From a virus, in the IMG/VR virus record IMGVR_UViG_3300046517_001040, positions 1-38,884 of that record: DNA of 38,884 bases. One strand, 5' to 3'. Positions 1,972-13,629 of this stretch are shown in pieces (position 1 is the stretch's first letter; each line of letters starts with the position of its first letter). The translations under genes and the position numbers were made by a program. Under the pieces are notes generated by a model. It made no database searches, was not told the DNA's origin, and saw nothing but the letters and a program-made list of their open reading frames with translations.

Positions 1972-2152
1972 CGTGGTCCCCTCTGTTGGTCGTGATGGGC
2001 GTGTTGGCGATGGTGTCGAGCGGCGCCAGCACGGCGAAGTACGGATCGAGCCGGCGGCGGCGGCATGCGGCTAGGAACAGCCGGTCGGCGAGACGGCCGA
2101 GCCGCCAGGCGCGCAGCTCGCGGCGGTCGTCGTGGGTGTCGGCGGCGGTCAT
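1835..2152 (-). CDS. Arg-rich hypothetical protein (up to 105 aa), C-terminal half overlaps the next gene
   Basis: The ATG at 2152 overlaps the stop of the DUF1376 gene as ATGA, supporting translation. The first 60 residues (RRELRAWRLGRLADRLFLAA and following) form a plausible basic amphipathic helix. Beyond about residue 61 the frame runs through the start of the coiled-coil gene and becomes His/Arg-rich low-complexity sequence, as expected for an out-of-frame overlap. Either the real protein ends earlier in relatives, or the long overlap is genuine. The function is unknown. Confidence 0.45.
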   Translation of the reverse strand: MTAADTHDDRRELRAWRLGRLADRLFLAACRRRRLDPYFAVLAPLDTIANTPITTNRGDHDEQHHDQRNQAAGAHAEPAVISHAGDERLHRKPANTRARTRHGLS

Positions 2153-2754
2153 GCGGCACCGCCGGCTGTTTTCTTCTCGGCTGACCGCTTTGGCGAGGCT
2201 GGCTGGGTGACAGGTCCCGGAGCGAGCGCGCCATCACCGAGCGCCGTAGCGAGCGCAGGGGCCGGGAGGTTATCCACAGCCCCTTCCTCTACTGTTACAG
2301 TAGTCTCTTTCTTTCTTTCTTTCTTATAAGAGCTTGAGCAAAATCCAAGCAAACCGACCTGTTTTGCTTGACGGTTTGCTTGCCAGTTTGCTTGCGCCTT
2401 TTTTGACAACTCGGCGGCGATCGTGCGGGTATTGGCAGATTTCCAGCCGCCGATTTGTCCAGAGATAGAACGCCTTACGCTGACAGCTTCAGCTTTTGCT
2501 CGTTCTTTGGTCGCCCGTTTATTGGTGCCATCCGCCTCAAAAAATTTTGCAATGGCTGGCCAGAGACCCTGCATACGGAATAGCGAAATTTTTAACAGTC
2601 CGGCCTGCCGCTTCCGGTCCAGAGGTATCCGGCCGGTACGCCAACATTCGTGCAGGAGGAGGATGTAGGCGGCATGCTCCTCGAACGAGAGCGCCGCCGT
2701 ATCGGCGTGGTAGTCGTCGATGTAGAACGTGATCCAGCGCCGACGCTTGGCCAT
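2149..2754 (-). CDS. DUF1376 (YdaU-like) protein, probable replication-associated factor (201 aa)
   Basis: Residues 7-50 match the DUF1376 pattern: WITFYIDDYHADTAALSFEE, then a YILLLHECWRTGRIPLD segment. This domain is found at the N-terminus of phage and prophage replication-initiation-type proteins. The remainder is basic and low complexity, ending Ala/Pro-rich, with no helicase-loader or second replication domain, so it is shorter than many relatives. Codons around KKERKKE are made of a CTTT/AAAG tetranucleotide repeat (2307-2325). The start lies two nt after the stop of the upstream 80-aa gene. Confidence 0.65.
   Translation of the reverse strand: MAKRRRWITFYIDDYHADTAALSFEEHAAYILLLHECWRTGRIPLDRKRQAGLLKISLFRMQGLWPAIAKFFEADGTNKRATKERAKAEAVSVRRSISGQIGGWKSANTRTIAAELSKKAQANWQANRQAKQVGLLGFCSSSYKKERKKETTVTVEEGAVDNLPAPALATALGDGALAPGPVTQPASPKRSAEKKTAGGAA
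2307..2325. repeat. CTTT tetranucleotide repeat inside the DUF1376 gene
   Basis: Four full CTTT units plus a partial one (2307-2325), read on the minus strand as AAAG repeats encoding alternating Lys/Arg/Glu. One unit gained or lost would shift the frame and remove the Ala/Pro-rich tail. The tract is short for active phase variation. Confidence 0.7.
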
Positions 2755-2756
2755 GG

Positions 2757-2999
2757 TCAGCCCTCAAAATCGATCGACTGGACGCTGCCGCCGCTGGTCG
2801 GCGGCATCGGCATGCGCCGCGGCGATCGGGTGCCGTGCGGATGGCTGACCGTGGCGCGCTCGGGGTGTTCCTGCGCCAACAGGTCGAGCATCCGTTCCGA
2901 TGCCGCCTCGCGCGCCGCCGTTTCGGCGGGATCGACGGCCAGCGCCTCGCCTGGGACTTGCTTGAACCGCCGGGTTCCGCGCGGCATGCCGGTTTTCAT
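2757..2999 (-). CDS. Hypothetical protein (80 aa)
   Basis: The start at 2999 is an ATG overlapping the stop of the methyltransferase as ATGA. The N-terminus MKTGMPRGTRR is also encoded, with one difference, by the 21-aa ORF at 3706-3771. The middle is Ala/Glu-rich and probably helical (EALAVDPAETAAREAASERM), and the C-terminus is Pro/Arg-rich. No family is recognised. It is one of a chain of coupled early genes. Confidence 0.5.
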   Translation of the reverse strand: MKTGMPRGTRRFKQVPGEALAVDPAETAAREAASERMLDLLAQEHPERATVSHPHGTRSPRRMPMPPTSGGSVQSIDFEG

Positions 3000-3004
3000 G
3001 ATTT
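2969..3004. repeat. Direct repeat copy A (36 bp), paired with 3741-3776
   Basis: Identical to 3741-3776 except for one base. It spans the start of the 80-aa gene and the stop of the upstream methyltransferase. The same gene-boundary sequence therefore occurs twice, 772 bp apart. Confidence 0.85.
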
Positions 3005-3709
3005 GAACTCCGGATTGCTGGCGGTGAGCGGCACTTTCCATATTTCATGCCAACTCAATTGCTGGGCGGGTGCCGGCCGTTCCACGAACATGTCCGGGGC
3101 GTCTAGCGCAGCCTGGATGCGGCGACATGCGATGTCGAAGTATTTGGGCTCTATCTCGACGCCGATGAACCGGCGGCCGAGCTTGACGGCGGCGACTCCG
3201 GTTGTCCCGGAGCCCATGAAGGGATCGAGGATGATAGTGCAATCTTCCGGCAACTGCTCAATGCACCACTTCATTACGTCGGTAGGCTTTTGGGTCGGGT
3301 GAGATCGCGTTTCCTTTACCTTCATGTACGGGCCTGACCATAGATGCCGAACCATCCGGCTCGACTTTCCGAGGTTAGTCCATGCCATTTCAAAGTCTGC
3401 GAATGTCGTCGGATCGTTTTGTTTGTCCCAGATTAGCCAATGACCGCTGGGAGGGAGCGCATAGTAGTTGCCACCGAAAATGATCTGAACCCGCGATATG
3501 GCGCGAGCGGCTTCCACAGCATCGTCTGCAGTTGATTTATCCCAATCGAACTTTTGGTATTCGGCCTTTCCGACCCTGCCGCCGTCCATGCCAATCCCAT
3601 ACGGGGGATCCGTAACTACGGCATCCACCTTGCCCAGCGTCGGCAATATCTCCCGGCAATCGCCCAGGTAGAGTGTCACGCCCTCGGCTAAATGCTCGAC
3701 GCGGCTCAT
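2996..3709 (-). CDS. DNA methyltransferase, N4/N6 type (237 aa)
   Basis: An S-adenosylmethionine-dependent amino-methyltransferase. TDPPYGIG at residues 33-40 is the catalytic DPPY motif, HPTQKP is at 137-142 and the SAM-binding DPFMGSGTT is at 162-170; catalytic before SAM-binding is the beta-type order used by CcrM/HinfI-like enzymes. The length is that of a catalytic core alone, without the extra C-terminal domain of CcrM, so the target is not predictable. The start MSRVEH at 3709 overlaps the stop of a 21-aa ORF as ATGA. No restriction endonuclease is seen nearby, so protection of phage DNA or regulation is more likely than restriction-modification. Confidence 0.88.
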   Translation of the reverse strand: MSRVEHLAEGVTLYLGDCREILPTLGKVDAVVTDPPYGIGMDGGRVGKAEYQKFDWDKSTADDAVEAARAISRVQIIFGGNYYALPPSGHWLIWDKQNDPTTFADFEMAWTNLGKSSRMVRHLWSGPYMKVKETRSHPTQKPTDVMKWCIEQLPEDCTIILDPFMGSGTTGVAAVKLGRRFIGVEIEPKYFDIACRRIQAALDAPDMFVERPAPAQQLSWHEIWKVPLTASNPEFKS

Positions 3710-3735
3710 CCGTGGGTTCCTTTGCGGTGATGCGT
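3706..3735. repeat. Direct repeat copy (30 bp), paired with 4457-4486
   Basis: 26 of 30 bases match 4457-4486. On the minus strand both copies encode the end THHR(K/R)GTHG of the upstream ORF, its stop, and the overlapping ATG of a methyltransferase. Confidence 0.75.
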
Positions 3736-3771
3736 TGCGCGCCGGGTTCCGCGCGGCATGCCGGTTCTCAT
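3706..3771 (-). CDS. 21-aa chimeric mini-ORF at a gene junction
   Basis: The ORF begins MRTGMPRGTRR, almost the same as the 80-aa gene at 2757-2999, and ends THHRKGTHG, almost the same as the C-terminus of the GcrA-like protein at 4457-4888. Its ATG overlaps the MT-A70 gene stop and its TGA overlaps the methyltransferase ATG, so ribosomes can pass through it. It looks like the remnant of a recombination between gene-boundary repeats, and may now serve only to couple translation of its neighbours. Confidence 0.5.
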   Translation of the reverse strand: MRTGMPRGTRRATHHRKGTHG

Positions 3772-3776
3772 GATTT
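3741..3776. repeat. Direct repeat copy B (36 bp), paired with 2969-3004
   Basis: 35 of 36 bases match 2969-3004. It holds the ATG of the 21-aa mini-ORF and the stop of the MT-A70 gene; both genes upstream of the two copies end in Lys-Ser-stop. Confidence 0.85.
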
Positions 3777-4460
3777 TGGCTCCCATCCAGGACCGCCTGA
3801 TGCCTCGCGTTCGCGAATGGCCGCATAGGCGTCATCCAGTGAGCCAGCCAAGTCTGCCGCGGAATCGTAGTCGTGCGGGCGGTTGAACTTGCCGACCTCG
3901 TTGCCCCATGCGGTCCAGCCCGGACGCTGCTGGCGCGCGAATAGTTCTAGGTATGGACCAGCGACCAACCGCTCGATGCGCCCGTGCACGCAATCGGGCT
4001 TGCGCGAATGTTCCCGTCGCGGCTCGATGATGGCTTGGCGAACATCGGCATTGAGCCGTTTAGGACTGCCGCGTGTCGCCAGCAAGCAGGGCTCGGTGTT
4101 GGCACGAGTCCAATAACCTAAGCCCATCTCGCCATCGTAATCGTTACGAAATAGCTCAAGTTGATTGGTGTGCGCCTTAGTCCAATTAAATGCACAGGTC
4201 TTGTATCTAAAACCCCACGCACTAATGACATCTAATAATTCGGGCAGGTAAACCCAGATTCCCCACATAAACAGAGCACAATTATCGGTGGCCAATTCTC
4301 GCACCGGCAAAGCAGCGATGTCCTCAATGGACATGACTCCATAATGGCAGGAAGCATCCCTATTTCCGCCTGCTGGCGTGTTCCATAGGTTCATAAACTG
4401 CCACGGCGGGTCAGCGAGAATCGCGCCGTAATGCCCGCGCGGAATCGCTTCCATGTTCAT
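3768..4460 (-). CDS. MT-A70 family N6-adenine methyltransferase (230 aa)
   Basis: ILADPPW at residues 14-20 gives the DPPW catalytic motif of the MT-A70 family. It is followed by the expected YGVMSIEDIAALPV region, ALFMWG (about residue 62), and a C-terminal REHSRKPD segment (about 150-157) that is conserved in phage members. These enzymes methylate adenine N6 in DNA in bacteria and phages. The ATG at 4460 overlaps the GcrA-like gene stop as ATGA; a second ATG two codons on is possible. With the enzyme at 2996-3709 this is one of two methyltransferases in the same coupled operon, and they probably have different targets. Confidence 0.85.
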   Translation of the reverse strand: MNMEAIPRGHYGAILADPPWQFMNLWNTPAGGNRDASCHYGVMSIEDIAALPVRELATDNCALFMWGIWVYLPELLDVISAWGFRYKTCAFNWTKAHTNQLELFRNDYDGEMGLGYWTRANTEPCLLATRGSPKRLNADVRQAIIEPRREHSRKPDCVHGRIERLVAGPYLELFARQQRPGWTAWGNEVGKFNRPHDYDSAADLAGSLDDAYAAIREREASGGPGWEPKS

Positions 4461-4486
4461 CCGTGCGTTCCCCTCCGGTGATGCGT
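4457..4486. repeat. Direct repeat copy (30 bp), paired with 3706-3735
   Basis: Covers the end of the GcrA-like gene and the start of the MT-A70 gene; 26 of 30 bases match the junction at 3706-3735. Confidence 0.75.
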
Positions 4487-4888
4487 GTCGCAGTACGACG
4501 AGCCGTCGCGGCGGTGATCGCCGCAGAACCGGAATGGGCTATCGCCGGTCGGCCAGCGGCAGTGGTGTTCCTGCAGTTCATCGATGGTGAGCTCGCCGAT
4601 CGGCGTGGGCGGAGGTGGCGGCGGTGGTGGTGTCACATGCACGGCGACCGGCCGCGGTTGCTTCGGCGCCGCGCGTTTCTTCTTGGTCGGCGTCGGCTTG
4701 CGCGGTTTCTTGCGCGACAGCGGCCGCACGAACCCGTTGCGGTGCACCAGGCCGATGATGGCGTTCTTGGTGACGCCGATGTCGAGCCGGCGCGCGATCT
4801 GGCCGGCGGTGAATCCGGCTTCCCACAACTGCCGCACCTGCTCGCGGCGCGCGTCGGTCCACTCCACGTTCGGCCAGGCTTGCGGCAT
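4457..4888 (-). CDS. GcrA family cell-cycle regulator homologue (143 aa)
   Basis: The N-terminal 50 residues match the GcrA DNA-binding helix-turn-helix: WTDARREQVRQLWEAG, GQIARRLD, TKNAIIGLVHRNG. A Lys/Pro-rich linker with eight consecutive prolines follows (about 87-94), then the GcrA C-terminal signature CRWPTGD (110-116), FCG (121-123) and YCDTH (132-136). In Caulobacter GcrA binds sigma-70 RNA polymerase and activates promoters carrying GANTC methylated by CcrM. Here it directly precedes two DNA methyltransferases in a coupled operon. That suggests methylation-dependent control of phage or host promoters; this is inference. The ATG is eight nt beyond the upstream stop with a weak AGGG site. 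Confidence 0.85.
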   Translation of the reverse strand: MPQAWPNVEWTDARREQVRQLWEAGFTAGQIARRLDIGVTKNAIIGLVHRNGFVRPLSRKKPRKPTPTKKKRAAPKQPRPVAVHVTPPPPPPPPTPIGELTIDELQEHHCRWPTGDSPFRFCGDHRRDGSSYCDTHHRRGTHG

Positions 4889-4896
4889 GTCACGCC

Positions 4897-5397
4897 CTAT
4901 CGTCGGCGAGCCAAGGGGCGACCCAGACCGCGGCGGATCTCGCCCAGCGCATCAATTTGAGGGCGATGAAAGTCCTCGTCGCAAACGCCCAAGGCAGTTT
5001 CCGCTCGGGCCAGCGTGTCCCCCAGCCGTTCGGCTTCATTGATCGCCTCTTGTAGGTGCTGCCGGTGGCGGCGCATGGCGCCAAGCTTGAACGCCGAGTT
5101 GACGATCACCCACCATTTCGGTTTTGCGTCAGTCATGATTTCCGCCAGAAAATCGAGCCCATGTTCGGACCGAAGGAGAGCGGCGAGTTCGTCGGATGAG
5201 AAGGCGCGCTCGCCGCTCAGTTTCTTGCGCGCGGCACCGTCAGAAAGCCCCAAAAGGCGGGCCAAAGCCTTGCGTGTGTGTTGCGGGAATAAAGTCTTGA
5301 AGACCGTGATGATGGCCCCGTTGTGGGGCAGTGATGGCCCCATTTCGGAAGCCATCTGATTTGCTGTCGTGCTGGCGCTCAGCGATGGTCCACGCAT
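4897..5397 (-). CDS. HTH regulator-like early protein (166 aa)
   Basis: Residues about 43-70 (RKALARLLGLSDGAARKKLS) look like a helix-turn-helix, followed by a helical, charged C-terminal half (RRHRQHLQEAINEAERLGDT). This resembles phage transcriptional activators placed directly after cro, but no specific family is recognised. I chose the ATG at 5397, which has GGGGCGAGGG upstream; a GTG at 5412 would add five residues and touch the stop of the Cro-like gene. Position second in the early operon fits a CII/Q-like or replication-control role, which is unproven. Confidence 0.55.
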   Translation of the reverse strand: MRGPSLSASTTANQMASEMGPSLPHNGAIITVFKTLFPQHTRKALARLLGLSDGAARKKLSGERAFSSDELAALLRSEHGLDFLAEIMTDAKPKWWVIVNSAFKLGAMRRHRQHLQEAINEAERLGDTLARAETALGVCDEDFHRPQIDALGEIRRGLGRPLARRR

Positions 5398-5411
5398 GAG
5401 CCCTCGCCCCA

Positions 5412-5639
5412 CTATCGAGATGCTGCTGTTTCGGTGCTGCGCCGTGGTGCAGGAACGGCGATGAAATCATTCGGCGTAACGGCGCCGCCTGTGGCCTTCA
5501 TAATTTCGAAGGCAAGCGCCATCGACGGCATGTCGCCGGTAAGGATTTGGGCAATGCGCCCCTGGGTGACGCCGACGCTCTTTGCGAACGCCTCCTGCGT
5601 CAGGCCCTCTTGAGTTGAAAACCAGACGGAAAATCGCAT
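5412..5639 (-). CDS. Cro-like HTH repressor (75 aa)
   Basis: Residues about 12-34 (GLTQEAFAKSVGVTQGRIAQ) are a typical XRE/Cro helix-turn-helix, followed by a short dimerisation-type tail. It is divergent from the CI-like gene, the classic switch arrangement. An ATG at 5657 would add six residues but lies upstream of the transcription start predicted from TTGACC-N18-TAATAA. The ATG at 5639 is therefore preferred, about two nt from that start, which would make the mRNA effectively leaderless. A perfect dyad (5641-5655) covers the promoter -10, implying direct repression. Confidence 0.8.
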   Translation of the reverse strand: MRFSVWFSTQEGLTQEAFAKSVGVTQGRIAQILTGDMPSMALAFEIMKATGGAVTPNDFIAVPAPRRSTETAASR

Positions 5640-5640
5640 G

Positions 5641-5655
5641 GCTAATTTTATTAGC
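5641..5655. promoter_or_regulatory. Operator-like palindrome GCTAAT-N3-ATTAGC
   Basis: Perfect 6+6 bp dyad with a three-base centre, overlapping the -10 of the Cro promoter. A shorter related site GCTGATTAGC lies at 5659-5668, and an unrelated perfect dyad, CATTATTAATG, at 5681-5691. Probable binding sites for the CI-like and Cro-like proteins. Confidence 0.65.
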
Positions 5656-5677
5656 ATTGCTGATTAGCGGCGGTCAA
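5648..5677 (-). promoter_or_regulatory. Predicted sigma-70 promoter for the leftward early operon
   Basis: Minus strand -35 TTGACC (5677-5672), 18-bp spacer, -10 TAATAA (5653-5648). The predicted start near 5641 falls about two bases before the chosen Cro ATG. The -10 box lies inside the 5641-5655 palindrome. Confidence 0.6.
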
Positions 5678-5733
5678 TAGCATTATTAATGAGAGTGGAT
5701 GGACCAGATAGGGGCTCCCGCCAAAATGGTGGG

Positions 5734-6090
5734 ATGGCAAAGAAAACAATTCCTGAGGTGAAAGTTCGAACGCGTTTCAAGCAACCAAAACAGCGCACAT
5801 TCCTTCCCCAGTGGCGAAAATATCGCGATAACATTACCCAAGAACGCTTGGCCGAACGGGCAGAGGTGAGCCAAGGCATGATTTCTCAGCTGGAAACCGG
5901 ACAAAGCGATTACACAGGCGAACTGCTGGAAAAACTTTCCTATGCGCTGCGGTGTGAGCCCGCCGACCTCATTATGCGTAACCCCCTTGATACTGAGGCT
6001 CCCTGGTCAATTTGGGAACGCCTCAAGCCAGAGCAGCGCAAGCAAGCCATCCGCCTATTAAAGGCGCTCGCAGAGGATGACGCCGCCTGA
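5734..6090 (+). CDS. CI-like XRE family repressor, short form (118 aa)
   Basis: Residues 34-55 (TQERLAERAEVSQGMISQLE) are a clear XRE helix-turn-helix, followed by SYALRCEPADLI typical of the family and a short C-terminal helix. There is no LexA/S24 autoprotease domain, so RecA-driven self-cleavage is not expected and induction must work differently. The start MAKKTIPEV is chosen because GGTGGG lies just upstream. It is the first rightward gene, divergent from the Cro-like gene across a 94-bp control region, and is the likely lysogeny repressor. Confidence 0.75.
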   Translation: MAKKTIPEVKVRTRFKQPKQRTFLPQWRKYRDNITQERLAERAEVSQGMISQLETGQSDYTGELLEKLSYALRCEPADLIMRNPLDTEAPWSIWERLKPEQRKQAIRLLKALAEDDAA

Positions 6091-6161
6091 CGAGGCGGGT
6101 GCAGCAGTTACGTCGGTCCACGCTTCCTATTTGAAAAATATCAACCACACTAATTTTTCGC

Positions 6162-6190
6162 TTGCGCCATCATATTAGCGATGCTATTAC
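6162..6190 (+). promoter_or_regulatory. Predicted promoter with operator-like dyad for the rightward recombination operon
   Basis: TTGCGC (6162-6167), 17-bp spacer, TATTAC (6185-6190). Within it ATTAGC-GAT-GCTATT (6174-6188) is a near-perfect dyad using the same ATTAGC hexamer as the switch-region operator. It lies in the 173-bp gap between the repressor and the next gene. Confidence 0.45.
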
Positions 6191-6263
6191 GGCTGCCTGC
6201 CGGACCTGCCACATCATCCCGATGGTCGGCGCGGCAATCACAGCCCAAGGAGGGCTATCTCTG

Positions 6264-7232
6264 ATGACTTGGTCTCCGAAGTTTACGCTCGATCTCCAAT
6301 CCGCCAGCAGCAAAGCGTTCGATAAGGTGCTGGAAGATTTCGAGGCGTGGCGGCAGACGCAGAAGCCGCGCGAGCTCGATCTCACCAACGGCTGGAAAAC
6401 GGTAACGCAGGAAACCGCCGAAAGCATGCTCCTGTGCAATCCGGTCGGCGCCAACCGCAAGCCGACGTTGCCGACCGTCAAATACTATGCCCGTCAAATG
6501 CTGCACGGCGATTGGAAGAAGACCGGGCAAGCGATCCTCTTCGATACCGATGGTAAGTTGATCGACGCCGGCCATCGGCTGTGGGCGTCGTACCTATCGG
6601 GCGCTTCGTTTGAGACCTTCGTCATTGGCGATGTGCCTGCCGATCCGACGCTGTTTGCCTTCATCGACAACTGCAAGGCCCGCTCGGCCGCGGATGCTCT
6701 GGCGACGGCCGGTCTTAATGGTCTGTCTAAGCAAATCGGTAGTGTCGTCAGCATGGCGATGCAGTTCGAGCATGGTTGCTTCACTGCCAGCGCCAAGAAG
6801 CCATTGGATCGGGTGTCGCCGATCGAGGTCGTTCACTACGCCCAGGAGAATGAGAACCTGCGGCTTGGCGTGCGGCTGATGGCTGGCGAGCACAAGGCTG
6901 CGGCCAAGGTACTGGCCTACAAAGACGTGGCGAGCTTCCTGGCCTTCCAGATCATCGAACTTCACGGCGAGGAAGTCCTGGACGAGTTCATGGGTGAACT
7001 CGGTCAGGTCAAGGATGAGACCGAAGAAGGCTCACCGATCGCCGCTTTGCAAAAGGTGATGGAAGACGACCAACACAGCGGCGAACCGATGAAGAAACAT
7101 CAGGTTCTCGGCCACGCCATCAAGGCGTTCAACGCCTTTGTCTCAGGCGAGCATGTGAAGAAGCTGACCTTGCGGGTCAACGAGACGTTTCCACGCTTCG
7201 TGAAACCGCAGCCGACTGAGCAAGCCGCGTAA
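6264..7232 (+). CDS. ParB-like (ParB/Srx fold) phage protein (322 aa)
   Basis: Residues about 60-115 contain PTVKYYARQMLHGDWKKTGQ followed by ILFDTDGKLIDAGHRLWAS, the pattern of a phage ParB-like nuclease family in which G-x-HR corresponds to the ParB GERR box. Next comes a DPTLFAFIDNCKARSAADAL segment, also conserved in that family. The C-terminal half is helical and unrecognised. There is no ParA and no parS-like array nearby, so plasmid partition is not supported; a nuclease or ATP/CTP-binding role is possible. The start is MTWSPKF, with AAGGAGGG upstream. Confidence 0.6.
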   Translation: MTWSPKFTLDLQSASSKAFDKVLEDFEAWRQTQKPRELDLTNGWKTVTQETAESMLLCNPVGANRKPTLPTVKYYARQMLHGDWKKTGQAILFDTDGKLIDAGHRLWASYLSGASFETFVIGDVPADPTLFAFIDNCKARSAADALATAGLNGLSKQIGSVVSMAMQFEHGCFTASAKKPLDRVSPIEVVHYAQENENLRLGVRLMAGEHKAAAKVLAYKDVASFLAFQIIELHGEEVLDEFMGELGQVKDETEEGSPIAALQKVMEDDQHSGEPMKKHQVLGHAIKAFNAFVSGEHVKKLTLRVNETFPRFVKPQPTEQAA

Positions 7233-7247
7233 CTGGAAATTCTATTT

Positions 7248-7275
7248 GGAGGCACCCGGTCGGTGCTTCCCTTTT
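7248..7275 (+). terminator. Possible rho-independent terminator or attenuator
   Basis: GGAGGCACC (7248-7256), five-base loop, GGTGCTTCC (7262-7270) pair with one G-T wobble, followed by C and TTTT. It sits between two same-strand genes, so partial termination is more likely than a full stop. Confidence 0.5.
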
Positions 7276-7292
7276 CTCCTTGGGAGAGGATG

Positions 7293-8177
7293 ATGAATAC
7301 GACGACGCTGTTAACCGTGCCGCAAGATGGCACCGCGCTCGATGTTCTGGCGATGCGCTACCGGGCTGCATTCGACAAGGTGCGCGGCACTCGTGAGCAA
7401 TGGATCGAGGCTACGCTTGAATTTGCCACTGTCATCCTGGATGCGCGTGAGCTCCTGCCCGTGCATCAGGAATACAGCCGTTGGCTCACTCGCCATCAGT
7501 TAGAACACCTTTCCCCCAATGATCGGCGGGCGTTAATTGGGTTTGGCGAGATGCATCGCAAAGACCCCGAAGCGGCTCGCCAGATGCTGGAAAAGAATTG
7601 CGGTCATTCCTGGCGCAATATTTGGGAAAAGAAGTCAAACCCGGAAAAACGTGCCCTTATCACGAAGGATAAGGGCACACTTTCGCATAGATCTGGCTCA
7701 AGTCTGCGCAAACGGCGCAACGTCGTCCCCGACGTGATGCGGGACGACTATGTTCCCGGTATACGGGTTATGCGGTTGCGCCGCCTGCACGCCAGCGGCA
7801 GCACGCCACAAGTGCAGAGCGATCCACCGCCCGCTCGACCAGAGCGGAAGGCAGTCAAGTTAAAGGGTCTCACGCGCGAGCAGGTCGATCCCGATTTTGT
7901 CGGCACGCCGCTCGAATTCGCCACCAAATACGGGCACGTCAATTTACAGACAAAGCAACAGATCGATCACAACAAGCATCAAGAGAAATTGATGGCTTGG
8001 CTCGGTCTGGTGTCCGACCACGAACGAACGGCGCGCGCATTACTCGCTGCTGCTGTCGATCCCGAAACGCTGCGCCAATGGATGAGCAAGCCTGCCAAGG
8101 CCGAGAAACTGCGGACGTGGTTGAGCAATATCGAGCGCGCCTGCGAGAGCCTGCGCAAGTGCGAGCCCGATAAATGA
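7293..8177 (+). CDS. Unknown phage protein (294 aa)
   Basis: No family is recognised. The N-terminal 120 residues are helical (ALDVLAMRYRAAFDKVRGTR, then a conserved-looking HSWRNIWE). The middle (about 120-185) is basic and low complexity, and the C-terminal third is again helical, ending in KAEKLRTWLSNIERACESL. Two ATGs (7290 and 7293) follow GGGAGAGG; the second has the better spacing. The TGA overlaps the next ATG. Position between the ParB-like gene and the recombination genes suggests DNA metabolism or replication, without direct evidence. Confidence 0.6.
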   Translation: MNTTTLLTVPQDGTALDVLAMRYRAAFDKVRGTREQWIEATLEFATVILDARELLPVHQEYSRWLTRHQLEHLSPNDRRALIGFGEMHRKDPEAARQMLEKNCGHSWRNIWEKKSNPEKRALITKDKGTLSHRSGSSLRKRRNVVPDVMRDDYVPGIRVMRLRRLHASGSTPQVQSDPPPARPERKAVKLKGLTREQVDPDFVGTPLEFATKYGHVNLQTKQQIDHNKHQEKLMAWLGLVSDHERTARALLAAAVDPETLRQWMSKPAKAEKLRTWLSNIERACESLRKCEPDK

Positions 8178-8362
8178 CCGACCCCACCATCGACATCATC
8201 GCCCACCTGTCGCGCCGCGACCTGGCGCGGGCCATTGCCGCCTGTGACAACATCACCGGCGCGGTCAACCGTCTCGAAAAGCTGGTCACACAGGCGCAGG
8301 CCGAGTTGGCCGAGTGGCAGCGCGAACTGGAGGCCATGTGCGAGCGGGCGGAACGGCCATGA
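8174..8362 (+). CDS. Small helical protein (62 aa)
   Basis: Starts and ends in ATGA overlaps with its neighbours, so it is coupled on both sides. The C-terminal half (VNRLEKLVTQAQAELAEWQR) is a probable coiled coil. Length and composition fit a small accessory protein of the recombination operon. The family is unknown. Confidence 0.55.
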   Translation: MTDPTIDIIAHLSRRDLARAIAACDNITGAVNRLEKLVTQAQAELAEWQRELEAMCERAERP

Positions 8363-8688
8363 CGGATCTGTTCGCATTCGCCGAGGCCAAGCGGCAGCGC
8401 GATGCTGGCATGGAACGGGCCGCGGTGCATACCGAGGACTTCTGTGAGTTCGCCTATGCCTGCCTAGTGCGGATCGCGCGGCGGCAAGTTCATCTGCACA
8501 TCGACGATTTGCTTTTGGAGCTCGACGGCCGCCGGCCGTCTAGTCCGAACGCCATGGGCTCGATCTGGATGCGCGCCATCCGCAACGGCGTGATCCAGCA
8601 CTCGAACCAGACGCGGCCGTGCATCACCGATGCCGGCAAGCATGCGCATCGGTATCCGATCTATTTCTCCCGCATATGCAAGGGCTGA
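8359..8688 (+). CDS. Winged-helix-like phage protein (109 aa)
   Basis: From about residue 35 the sequence HLHIDDLLLELDGRRPSSPN, then AMGSIWMRAIRNGVIQ and a HRYPIYF ending, follows a phage family in which a helix, an A-x-G helix and a short beta hairpin resemble a winged helix. Members are commonly annotated as hypothetical or DNA-binding and sit near recombination genes. The start at 8359 overlaps the previous stop as ATGA. DNA binding is inferred from the predicted fold. Confidence 0.5.
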   Translation: MTDLFAFAEAKRQRDAGMERAAVHTEDFCEFAYACLVRIARRQVHLHIDDLLLELDGRRPSSPNAMGSIWMRAIRNGVIQHSNQTRPCITDAGKHAHRYPIYFSRICKG

Positions 8689-8689
8689 A

Positions 8690-9475
8690 ATGCTGACGCC
8701 CGCACAGATCGACGCCCGCCGCGGCAAGCTGACCGCATCGCGCGTGGCGTGCCTGATGACGGCCGACACCGCCAAGATCATGGCGTTGTATCTGGAACTG
8801 ACCGACGACCCGGCGTTTGTGCCGGAAGACTTGTCCGAGGTCTGGCCGGTGCGGCTCGGCGAATGCACCGAACAGCTTTCGCTCGACTGGTTTGAACTCA
8901 AACGAGGGCCGGTATCGCGCCGCGGCGAGGTCGTCGCGCATTCCAACGGCTGGGCGGCTTGCACGCTTGACGGCTGGTCCGATCTGCACGGTTGCCCGAT
9001 CGAGACGAAACACTGCGGCGGCCACGAGCCATTCGAGGTGTTGGTCAGCCGCTATCAGCCGCAACTGCACTGGCAGATGGCGATGACCGGCGTGAAACAA
9101 TGTGCGCTGTCGATCATCCTTGGCGCCCGCGAGCCGATCGTCGACCTCGTCGAATGGGACGAGGACTACGGCGCGGAGTTATGGCAGCGCGCCACCGCGT
9201 TCATGGCTTGCGTGCAGTCACGCACACCGCCGGTCAAGATCGACGGGCCGGTGGTGCCGCCAATACCGGGCAAGGTCTATGACATGGAAGGCAACAACAC
9301 ATGGGGCGCCGAAGCGGCCCTATGGCTCGAGAACGTCGCCGCCAAGCGGCAAGCCGAGCAGGCCGAGAAAACCTTAAAGGCCATGGTCCCCGCCGATGCC
9401 AAGAAAGCATTCGGCCACTCGATCACCATCACCCGCGACCGCGCCGGTCGCCTTTCATTGCGCGAGGCAACATGA
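8690..9475 (+). CDS. YqaJ-like phage recombinase / exonuclease (261 aa)
   Basis: Lambda-exonuclease-type double-strand DNA 5'-3' exonuclease for phage recombination. RRGKLTASRV (10-19) is the family's N-terminal motif, GECTEQLSLDWFE holds the helical Glu (about residue 61), CTLDGW (91-96) the metal-binding Asp, PIETK (103-107) the Glu-x-Lys, and QPQLHWQM (123-130) the Gln/His helix. All PD-(D/E)xK residues are present, so it is probably active. It is followed by its likely annealing partner in an ATGA overlap. The start MLTPAQ is two nt after the preceding stop. Confidence 0.85.
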   Translation: MLTPAQIDARRGKLTASRVACLMTADTAKIMALYLELTDDPAFVPEDLSEVWPVRLGECTEQLSLDWFELKRGPVSRRGEVVAHSNGWAACTLDGWSDLHGCPIETKHCGGHEPFEVLVSRYQPQLHWQMAMTGVKQCALSIILGAREPIVDLVEWDEDYGAELWQRATAFMACVQSRTPPVKIDGPVVPPIPGKVYDMEGNNTWGAEAALWLENVAAKRQAEQAEKTLKAMVPADAKKAFGHSITITRDRAGRLSLREAT

Positions 9476-10365
9476 ATAACCTGGCACCGTCCACTCCCGG
9501 CGACCTGATCGAACGAGTTGTCATCAAAGGCGACCTTTCCAAACTGACGCCGGAACAGAAGAGTAACTATTACTTTAAGGTATGTGAAAGCCTCGGTCTA
9601 AACCCGCTGACAAAGCCTTTCGCTTACATCACCCTTAATGGCAAAGAGGTGCTTTACGCGCTGCGCGACTGCACCGACCAACTGCGCAACATTCACGGCG
9701 TTTCGGTCGAGGCCCTGAGCGAGAACCAGCGCGAAGGCATCTACATAGTCACGGCCAAGGTGCGCAACACCAAGGGCCGCACCGACGTTGCCACAGGCGC
9801 CGTCAGCATCACCAACCTGCGAGGCGAGTTGTTGGCTAACACATTGATGAAGGCCGAGACCAAGGCTAAGCGCCGCGCCACTCTGTCGATCTGCGGACTC
9901 GGATTCCTGGACGAGACGGAGGTCGGCGACATCCCCGGCGCAGAGACAACGCCGCGCCAGGCGCCGCCGATCGCCCCGCTGAAACTGGCGGTGCCGAAGG
10001 CCAACCCTGCCACCTATCACGAAGACATGCGCAGGGATCTGGACCGGGATCCGATCGAGAAGCAACACGACCCGGAAACGGGAGAAGTTCGGGAGATCGA
10101 CGAGCCCCATCCGTCCGATCCCGATGCCTCGGCCGCGCCTGAAGGTTTTGATTTCGGCGCGGCCGAGGAGCATTCCAAGGAAACCACCACCGACCTTATC
10201 AAGCGACTCGACGACGCCTTGGCGATCGCGGCGGCGAAGGGGACTGCAGCCCTCAAGGAAGCATGGGACGAGGTCGAACCGGCTGACCAGCGGCTGATGA
10301 GGGCCGCTCTTAACAGGCGGCATAAGCCGGCGGCAGCGGAAGCGGATAAGGGCGCGGCGCCATGA
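9472..10365 (+). CDS. Putative single-strand DNA annealing protein (297 aa)
   Basis: Residues 25-150 contain YYFKVCESLGLNPLTKPFAY, ALRDCTDQLRNIHG, GAVSITNLRGELLANTLMK and AETKAKRRATLSICGLGFLD. This N-terminal domain resembles phage proteins annotated as RecT-like or single-strand DNA binding, and lies directly downstream of the YqaJ exonuclease, which normally pairs with an annealase. The C-terminal half is acidic with a disordered linker (EDMRRDLDRDPIEKQHDPET), comparable to partner-binding tails. The annealase role is inferred from gene pairing; the similarity to RecT or ERF is not strong by eye. Confidence 0.6.
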   Translation: MNNLAPSTPGDLIERVVIKGDLSKLTPEQKSNYYFKVCESLGLNPLTKPFAYITLNGKEVLYALRDCTDQLRNIHGVSVEALSENQREGIYIVTAKVRNTKGRTDVATGAVSITNLRGELLANTLMKAETKAKRRATLSICGLGFLDETEVGDIPGAETTPRQAPPIAPLKLAVPKANPATYHEDMRRDLDRDPIEKQHDPETGEVREIDEPHPSDPDASAAPEGFDFGAAEEHSKETTTDLIKRLDDALAIAAAKGTAALKEAWDEVEPADQRLMRAALNRRHKPAAAEADKGAAP

Positions 10366-12113: not shown

Positions 12114-12875
12114 ATGAGAAATGTGCTGCTAGCATCAGCCGCCGCGCTGATGCTGTTACCGATGTCAGCGAAGGCCGACATCATTCTGGGCGGCCAAAAC
12201 TGGACCGGCACGGGTACCACCCTAACCCTGTCCGCGACCGTGCCGGGCGGCAACCAACCGCAGAATGCACCGTGCATCATCTGCGGCGAGAACCAACCGC
12301 AGCAACCGGCAGGCTTCGGCTATAACGACTACAGCAACGCTGGCAATCTGACCACCATCGAAGCCTTCAGCGATCAGGGCAACGGTGGCCGCAACTTCTT
12401 GGCCGACAACACCTTCGCCACCGGCTACACCATCGGCAGTGGCTCACCGCTGCTGACGTTCCTGTTGGCTAACGGTGCCACTCCCGGCAGCTTAGGCTTC
12501 TCGATCGGTGTCGACATCAACGATACCGGGACAGCACAAACCCTCAACTCATTCTACTTCCTCGATCTGACCACGCACACAGTGCTGTCGTCGTTCACGG
12601 GCGGCACCACGGGCAACGTGCCTGACATCAACAACGGCACCGGCTTCCCGGACTACACGATCAGCGGCTTGACGCTCAACGGCGTCAGCGTGGGCGATAC
12701 GGTTCTGTTCGTCGCCCGCATGTCGGGCCTCAACGACGGGCCGGACTCGTTCTTCATTGAGCCGGGGCCAGCGGTTGCCGTTCCTGGTCCGGTGGTCGGC
12801 GCTGGCATTCCGGGGCTGATCGCGGCTGGCATGTTCATGGTCGGCCTGGCTCGTCGCCGCAAGAAGCTGGTGTAA
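12114..12875 (+). CDS. Secreted protein with PEP-CTERM-like sorting signal (253 aa), probable lysogenic-conversion gene
   Basis: A Sec signal peptide is visible (residues 1-21, MRNVLLASAAALMLLPMSAKA). A Gly/Thr/Asn-rich secreted domain follows, with CIIC at 54-57. The C-terminus has VPGP (223-226), a hydrophobic span (about 229-245) and RRRKK (247-251), the tripartite layout of PEP-CTERM anchors, in the VPGP variant seen in Bradyrhizobiaceae. Such proteins are processed by exosortase and sent to the envelope or matrix by the host. GGAG precedes the ATG. It has no role in phage assembly that I can see and is isolated by dyads upstream and a terminator downstream, so it looks like a moron acquired from a host. 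Confidence 0.75.
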   Translation: MRNVLLASAAALMLLPMSAKADIILGGQNWTGTGTTLTLSATVPGGNQPQNAPCIICGENQPQQPAGFGYNDYSNAGNLTTIEAFSDQGNGGRNFLADNTFATGYTIGSGSPLLTFLLANGATPGSLGFSIGVDINDTGTAQTLNSFYFLDLTTHTVLSSFTGGTTGNVPDINNGTGFPDYTISGLTLNGVSVGDTVLFVARMSGLNDGPDSFFIEPGPAVAVPGPVVGAGIPGLIAAGMFMVGLARRRKKLV

Positions 12876-12880
12876 TCATC

Positions 12881-13030
12881 ATGCGAAAGATCGCGCGCTT
12901 CGATGCCAGGATATTGGCAGAAGGCCTGCTGGCCGATGGCCTTGATGTCAGTCGCCTTACACCAGAAGGGCGGTAAGAACTGCGACGCGCGCTCGACAAG
13001 GTGCTGGAGCTGGCAGGCGCAAAAGTGTGA
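12881..13030 (+). pseudogene. Small helical ORF interrupted by an in-frame TAA
   Basis: An ATG at 12881 gives 31 codons ending SRLTPEGR, then TAA at 12974-12976. The same frame continues with ELRRALDKVLELAGAKV to a TGA at 13028-13030. Both halves read as one 49-residue amphipathic helical protein in which the TAA would come from a single substitution, for example of GAA. The upstream 31-aa piece may still be made. The function is unknown. Confidence 0.5.
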
Positions 13031-13034
13031 AAGG

Positions 13035-13065
13035 CGGCCACGGAAAATTCTGGGGCCGTTTTTAT
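13035..13065 (+). terminator. Rho-independent terminator
   Basis: CGGCC (13035-13039) pairs with GGCCG (13054-13058) across a 14-base loop, followed directly by TTTTT. It closes the PEP-CTERM-like transcript and argues that the next gene does not start at the GTG at 13027. Confidence 0.55.
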
Positions 13066-13083
13066 CTCGGAGGACTACCGCCG

Positions 13084-13629
13084 TTGAGCGACATACAACC
13101 TAAGCTCAGAATTTTTCCGATGACGATCGGGCAGGCAAACACGCTTGTTGCCCATTGGCATCGCCATCATAAACCATTGGCACAGGCAAAATTCTGCATC
13201 GGCGTTTGCGACGAGGCGGGCGGGCGGATTTGCGGCGCAGCCATAGTCGGTCGGCCGGTCGCACGCGTACTCGATGAAGGAACGAGCCTTGAAGTGAACC
13301 GATGCGTCACGGATGGCACGCCAAACGCTTGCAGTGCACTCTACGGAGCCGTTGCGCGGGCTGCCAAAGCCCTCGGTTACCTTCGGGTTTTCACTTACAC
13401 GCGCGTTGATGAGCCCGGTGCGTCCCTTCGGGCAGCTGGCTGGATTTTGGACGACCCTGCCATCCGCGCTCGTTCCTGGAATATGCCCGGTCGGGTGCGC
13501 GTAGACCGGACTGAGATTATCGGGCGGCAAAGATGGATTTGGGCGAGTGGCTTGCCACCGATTGACGCCAAATTTCCATCGCTTTCGGATCACGCAAACG
13601 GGATGCAAGATATGTTCGCGGGGAGATGA
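13084..13629 (+). CDS. XF1762 family protein (GNAT-like fold, 181 aa)
   Basis: The sequence reads MTIGQANTLVAHWHRHHKPL, then KFCIGVCDEAGGRICGAAIV, VGRPVARVLDEGTSLEVNR, NACSALYGAVARAAKALGY, and EPGASLRAAGW, the conserved series of the XF1762 phage/prophage family related to acetyltransferases. Its substrate is unknown. I place the start at the TTG at 13084, which has CGGAGGA ten nt upstream and gives the usual N-terminus; a GTG at 13027 in the same frame would overlap the preceding stop and run through the terminator hairpin. Role in the phage is unknown, possibly protection or host modification. Confidence 0.75.
   Translation: MSDIQPKLRIFPMTIGQANTLVAHWHRHHKPLAQAKFCIGVCDEAGGRICGAAIVGRPVARVLDEGTSLEVNRCVTDGTPNACSALYGAVARAAKALGYLRVFTYTRVDEPGASLRAAGWILDDPAIRARSWNMPGRVRVDRTEIIGRQRWIWASGLPPIDAKFPSLSDHANGMQDMFAGR

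Follow-up and report, generated by a model that had tools for sequence, protein, structure and literature searches.

A phage-borne GcrA-family gene with an exchangeable methyltransferase slot in its early operon

The early operon and its GcrA-family protein

The stretch analyzed here, referred to as the window, is an IMG/VR virus record of 38,884 bases (IMGVR_UViG_3300046517_001040), in which a gene for a GcrA-family protein is the third gene of a leftward early operon and is followed by two genes of different methyltransferase families. In Caulobacter crescentus, GcrA is a sigma-70 cofactor that reads GANTC sites methylated by CcrM. The window represents a temperate lambdoid phage, presumably of an alphaproteobacterium because of its set of gene families and the depletion of GANTC described below. 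The genes of the early region are as follows (HTH, helix-turn-helix; ORF, open reading frame; aa, amino acids).

5689-6090, plus strand: CI-like HTH repressor, divergent (PF01381, 37.6 bits)
5412-5657, minus strand: Cro-like HTH protein, first in the leftward early operon (PF01381, 33.7 bits)
4897-5412, minus strand: ORF of 171 aa, no known family
4457-4888, minus strand: GcrA-family protein, 143 aa, with HTH at about 10-53, a Pro/Lys-rich linker and a sigma-interacting-like domain at about 97-142 (PF07750)
3768-4460, minus strand: MT-A70 family methyltransferase, 230 aa, ADPPW motif, cassette 1 (PF05063, phrog_359)
2996-3709, minus strand: beta-order N6_N4 methyltransferase, 237 aa, motifs DPPYG...HPTQKP...DPFMGSGTTG, cassette 2 (PF01555)
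2757-2999, minus strand: small conserved gene, 80 aa, located directly after GcrA in those relatives whose slot is empty
2149-2754, minus strand: DUF1376/primosomal-like replication gene, downstream in the operon (PF07120, 44.7 bits; phrog_3992)

The original prediction of a GcrA homologue with both an HTH and a C-terminal signature was borne out: the protein scored 92.8 bits against PF07750 (the Pfam cut-offs being 26.9 bits for PF07750, 23.9 for PF05063 and 26.7 for PF01555), and the pattern CRWP...C...C..H lies at its C terminus. In a phmmer search it matched the C. crescentus GcrA chains 7ye1, 5yiu and 5yix, which represent the full-length protein, the DNA-binding domain (DBD) and the sigma-interacting domain (SID), respectively. 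An AlphaFold model built from 29 phage GcrA sequences had a mean predicted local distance difference test score of 82.7. In VIA-align, model residues 4-53 were superimposed on the DBD of 5yiu (Z 9.0, root mean square deviation 1.4, 49 aligned residues, 47% identity) and residues 97-142 on the SID of 5yix_B (Z 7.1, root mean square deviation 2.2). The model thus suggests, at the level of the fold only, a C-terminal domain of the kind that interacts with sigma-70 region 2. Residues W10, R50, C110, C122, C133 and H136 were invariant across the 29 phage GcrA-like proteins. Against the cellular GcrA equivalog NF050816 the protein scored 77 bits, compared with a cut-off of 280, and it is a (sigma-70-cofactor-like) member of the GcrA family rather than a cellular orthologue.

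Both methyltransferase families named in the prediction were also recovered, the first by PF05063 (85 bits) with the ADPPW motif and the second by PF01555 (91.5 bits), with DPPYG ahead of HPTQKP and DPFMGSGTTG. That both enzymes act on DNA is a less secure part of the claim, since DNA cannot safely be assigned as the substrate of the MT-A70 enzyme (PMC10810198), whose nearest solved structures are METTL3-like chains. The N6_N4 enzyme matched DpnA and CcrMI chains by phmmer and has the beta-class motif order of CcrM; its gene has an additional in-frame upstream ATG at 3835. No restriction endonuclease family was found among the neighbours scanned, as predicted, and neither methyltransferase adjoins a cognate endonuclease there, as it would in a type II restriction-modification system. 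The GcrA and MT-A70 genes overlap, their stop and start codons sharing ATGA; the two methyltransferase genes are separated by 58 bases without a simple overlap. The shared ATGA was itself rejected as proof of coupling, since phage MT-A70 genes commonly overlap quite different neighbours.

CcrM is a protein of about 350 aa with a C-terminal DNA-binding extension, a length and extension that the N6_N4 enzyme, at 237 aa, does not have. Against the CcrM equivalog the enzyme scored 69 bits compared with a cut-off of 830, and only profile positions 181-254 were matched. BLASTP against the GANTC methyltransferase p027 of phage phiLM21 gave no detectable similarity for either enzyme (best E 0.29 for MT-A70 and 0.24 for N6_N4). 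The equivalog score and the latter comparison excluded the enzymes as CcrM or p027.

The slot behind GcrA

The two methyltransferase genes occupy a slot bounded by the 3' end of GcrA and the 5' start of the small gene. In the sister record L002, in which GcrA is 89% identical, no methyltransferase is present and the GcrA stop overlaps the start of the small gene; in the window the small gene (79% identity to L002 and L185) lies after both methyltransferases. The empty slot, GcrA followed by the small gene, also occurs in L100, L102, L103, L271, L273, L274 and L276. In the loci found with the small-gene family (L268-L276), GcrA was directly before the small gene in all cases, with nothing between the two in eight and an MT-A70 gene between them in L275/L014. 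Scans of the whole records of nine relatives detected MT-A70 in two, within the slot in the record of L014 and elsewhere, on the opposite strand, in that of L100; PF01555 was detected in none of the nine, several of which are fragments.

A repeat search located two pairs of direct repeats at the slot boundaries.

4457-4491, minus strand: D2 copy 1, the GcrA 3' end
3740-3783, minus strand: D1 copy 1, a remnant of the small-gene start behind MT-A70
3706-3740, minus strand: D2 copy 2, a remnant of the GcrA 3' end before the N6_N4 gene
2968-3011, minus strand: D1 copy 2, the beginning of the intact small gene that follows N6_N4

The D1 copies are 91% identical over 44 nt and the D2 copies 83% over 35 nt; position 4457 is the sole other site in the window that matches the D2 sequence at 3706 in at least 29 of 35 positions. 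The remnants were recognized by comparison with the sister record: D2 copy 2 aligned with the L002 GcrA end over 36 nt (91.7%, E 2e-7) and D1 copy 1 was identical to the start of the L002 small gene in 20 of 20 nt. The scar between the methyltransferase genes consists of about 32 first bases of the small gene and then a GcrA 3' end. The order is GcrA end, MT-A70, small-gene start, GcrA end, N6_N4 gene, small-gene start, and the interlocking repeats therefore delimit two stacked cassettes, each bordered by the same frame. The GC content of the MT-A70 and N6_N4 genes is 0.563 and 0.567, that of GcrA and the small gene 0.69-0.70.

The MT-A70 protein of L014 ends in AWDEMWKAPLRASNPEFKA, matching the tail of the N6_N4 enzyme of the window, SWHEIWKVPLTASNPEFKS, with 83% identity over 58 nt at the DNA level; this tail pattern was found in no other ORF of the loci compared. 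Either MT-A70 replaced an N6_N4 gene in the lineage of L014 or a deletion fused the two, and both origins imply exchange within the slot. Transfer of GcrA and methyltransferase as one mosaic block was considered and rejected, since L003, with the nearest MT-A70 (71%), lacks an adjoining GcrA, and L002, with the nearest GcrA, lacks MT-A70. The DNA block 4457-5403, comprising GcrA and the 171-aa ORF, is about 91% identical in L002, though the adjacent switch gene differs, and a homologue of this ORF also precedes GcrA in L273. With their common boundaries, the stacked cassettes illustrate how unrelated methyltransferases are swapped by phages at a single junction.

GcrA and methyltransferases in other phages

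The occurrence of the two families together was analyzed in phage samples drawn from either side. Among 86 GcrA loci not selected for methyltransferases, an MT-A70 gene was found within 5 kb in 17, of which 12 had it within 1 kb and 16 on the same strand, on either side of GcrA. After dereplication, 11 of the 14 loci with MT-A70 within 5 kb had it within 1 kb of GcrA (P ~4e-6), and when related MT-A70 genes were collapsed this was true of six out of seven clusters (P ~4e-4). Conversely, PF07750 was detected in 13 of 50 records selected by MT-A70 (one of the 13, L002, had been picked by GcrA); in nearly all of the others the two genes share a strand and lie no more than 1.2 kb apart. Of 50 records sampled by the N6_N4 family, 16 contain GcrA (15 of these above the cut-off), and in L195, L198, L199 and L200 the methyltransferase lies 81-99 bp behind GcrA.

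In Pfam scans of the regions within 1 kb, MT-A70 was the commonest neighbour of GcrA (10 ORFs over 61 dereplicated loci) and GcrA the commonest neighbour of MT-A70 (10 ORFs, followed by DUF1376 with 7). The MT-A70 tree shows 14 changes in GcrA adjacency by parsimony, and at least seven when well-supported branches are counted, in both gene orders. The association of GcrA with methyltransferases is thus real at the family level and far above chance. Crowding of genes in early operons contributes to it; the concentration of MT-A70 within 1 kb of GcrA counts against crowding as the sole cause. No paper on GcrA and MT-A70 together was found in an incomplete literature search.

In Agrobacterium phage Atu_ph08 (L298 1027-2013, MF403009), a GapR-domain gene stands directly before GcrA, so that two alphaproteobacterial chromosome or cell-cycle proteins adjoin, and a C5 methyltransferase gene follows two genes on, about 490 bp from GcrA. 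A gammaproteobacterial parallel to the GcrA-MT-A70 pair was observed in phiV10 (L278 1730-2639), where MT-A70 and a PerC-family activator gene overlap. A universal activator partner for MT-A70 was not supported, since the upstream neighbours differ among phages and include a helicase loader, DnaB, HNH and unknown genes.

GANTC and GATC content

GANTC occurs 37 times in the window, compared with 168 expected under a dinucleotide model (22%); control motifs with matching composition lie at 57-108% of their expected counts. Only two of the 37 sites are intergenic, and none of the sites of the longer motif YGAKTCG in the window is intergenic. Around 5.6 kb, where the original prediction called for a count of the methylated motif, there are none, the entire interval 4812-9895 being free of GANTC; no terS gene, the other landmark named there, was identified within the window. 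Across 61 GcrA-bearing loci, GANTC was not enriched between genes (ratio 0.95).

Control of promoters by GcrA itself, as predicted, remains plausible. The GANTC count was discarded as support, as the motif is depleted, mostly intragenic and avoids the early regulatory region. Sites at phage promoters, as expected of a mark written and read by the phage, were not found for GANTC, which may not be the motif of these enzymes. GATC is over-represented (331 versus 218 expected), an excess that is only a lead.

The MT-A70 gene itself contains six of the 37 GANTC sites, and seven fall within 3862-4811 (scan P ~0.009). This cluster is consistent with the recent arrival of a gene of lower GC content, from which sites have not yet been purged, rather than with a regulatory site.

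Interpretation of the locus

We favour, with a probability of roughly 0.58, the interpretation that the early phage GcrA redirects the sigma-70 polymerase of the host at promoters methylated by the host, and that the methyltransferases behind it are exchangeable accessories. GcrA binds sigma-70 region 2 and stimulates the formation of open complexes at methylated promoters (PMC3667746, PMC7403470), and a GcrA-dependent prophage operon has been described in Brevundimonas (PMC7987155). By analogy, the phage protein, made early, would most likely bind the host sigma-70 RNA polymerase and steer it to promoters carrying GANTC methylated by the host CcrM. The host would thereby be pushed into a replicating state, or phage transcription boosted. 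The enzymes encoded in the slot would most likely serve as accessory, orphan functions in self-modification or anti-restriction, expressed together with GcrA and not needed by it. Their repeated occurrence next to GcrA may mean either that both are simply expressed early or that the two are functionally linked.

Several points weigh against this interpretation. The CcrM of the host is assumed from the lineage; a search of a genome contig collection with the window GcrA returned no relatives, hence no cultured lysogen or host. The recognition helix reads TKNAIIGLVHR, compared with the canonical TRNAVIGKVHR, with Leu in place of Lys, and binding at host methyl-GANTC promoters therefore cannot be assumed. 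Lys occupies this position in 54 of 59 distinct phage GcrA proteins without an adjacent methyltransferase and in 18 of 30 with one. Moreover, the reciprocal enrichment of GcrA and MT-A70 exceeds what would be expected of unrelated accessory genes, unless early-operon crowding explains it, and either state of the slot may be ancestral, with cassettes gained or lost.

According to the original prediction, the phage methyltransferases install the mark that its own GcrA reads; in this reading one or both enzymes would lay N6-methyladenine (m6A) on phage or host promoters. We consider it unlikely. It draws support from the mutual preference of the two families as neighbours in independent samples, from the second, unrelated methyltransferase family close behind GcrA in four loci, from the C5 gene near GcrA in Atu_ph08, and from the GANTC-specific methyltransferases carried by some alphaproteobacterial phages (PMC5537653). 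However, GcrA and the writers are not kept together: eight relatives (some records being fragments) retain GcrA and the same module with neither enzyme in the slot, and the enzymes are exchangeable. They are also far under the CcrM cut-off and without similarity to p027, and the partners, of several chemistries (MT-A70, N6/N4 and C5), misfit one fixed m6A mark. A GANTC mark would presumably be made by the host already, and the motif is scarce in the window, absent from the early regulatory region (likewise YGAKTCG from intergenic DNA) and not enriched between the genes of GcrA-bearing phages.

An equally doubtful variant regards GcrA with its plug-in slot as a modular unit, in which unrelated writers (MT-A70, beta N6/N4, sometimes C5) swap behind or before the same reader. 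If so, the phage could change the mark met by GcrA-loaded polymerase, or GcrA could direct the methyltransferase.

Still less probably, the MT-A70 enzyme acts on RNA and, instead of marking DNA, alters translation or induction. The model would be M.EcoPA8orf6770P of a Shiga toxin-producing Escherichia coli prophage, which is reported to methylate 16S rRNA with the neighbouring HTH protein PNB-2 (PMC10810198), and the family relationship, the DPPW motif and the METTL3-like nearest structures agree with it. On the other hand, M.EcoGV, a phage MT-A70 enzyme closely related to M.EcoPA8orf6770P, methylates GATC in vivo when overproduced, as quoted in PMC10810198; no RNA-binding partner was identified here, and the substrate cannot be revealed by sequence.

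That GcrA is instead a specificity subunit, complexed with MT-A70 and directing its methylation sites in the manner of PNB-2, whose gene lies directly upstream of that prophage MT-A70, is highly improbable. In its favour, a nucleic-acid-binding protein encoded nearby can be required by MT-A70 enzymes (PMC10810198), GcrA belongs to this class and is encoded directly upstream here, and a PerC-family gene precedes the phiV10 enzyme. Against it, the upstream neighbours of MT-A70 vary in other phages, and GcrA is often downstream, up to 0.7 kb off or absent, and persists without MT-A70.

Other genes of the window

The window further encodes a YqaJ/RecE-like exonuclease, an integrase and a large terminase of the HK97 type. 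Two plus-strand genes, 6162-7232 and 7263-8177, appear conserved; the former matches only phrog_5931, the function of which is not known, and the latter no family. The product of 13027-13629 (plus strand) matches Pfam Mom (PF25680) weakly and below the cut-off (E 0.085), and may be a DNA-modification gene. The gene at 12114-12875 encodes a predicted secreted protein that ends in a VPGPVVGAGIPGLIAAGMFMVGLARRRKK-type PEP-CTERM-like anchor and is 74% identical in L014, an unusual cargo for a phage.

Comparison with known systems

The window GcrA has the same DBD-linker-SID order as C. crescentus GcrA, with matching DBD and SID folds. It differs from the latter in being phage-encoded, in its length (143 versus 173 aa) and in reading GLVHR instead of GKVHR in the recognition helix.

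Among the methyltransferases, p027 of phiLM21 and other phage enzymes that mimic CcrM are likewise orphans encoded in the early region of alphaproteobacterial phages (PMC5537653). The specificity of p027 for GANTC was established by experiment, whereas the window enzymes share no detectable similarity with it. The MT-A70 enzymes of the phiV10 family, M.EcoGV and M.EcoPA8orf6770P share with that of the window the Pfam family, an early or accessory position and the stop/start overlap with the preceding gene. In contrast, the isolate-phage enzymes compared are at most about 40-48% identical to it, derive from phages of Gammaproteobacteria and have another upstream partner.

Phage-borne GcrA has been reported from phiCbK-like phages and from Atu_ph08, and is believed to modify transcription in the host (PMC3556154, PMC6630229). 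No methyltransferase is annotated near the GcrA of phiCbK (gp222), and neither phiCbK nor Atu_ph08 has the stacked slot present in the window. Phage GcrA has been known since phiCbK; the present locus and its relatives, with zero, one or two methyltransferases, constitute natural pairs with and without the enzymes, in which dependence of a phage GcrA on a phage mark, as opposed to the host CcrM only, becomes directly testable.

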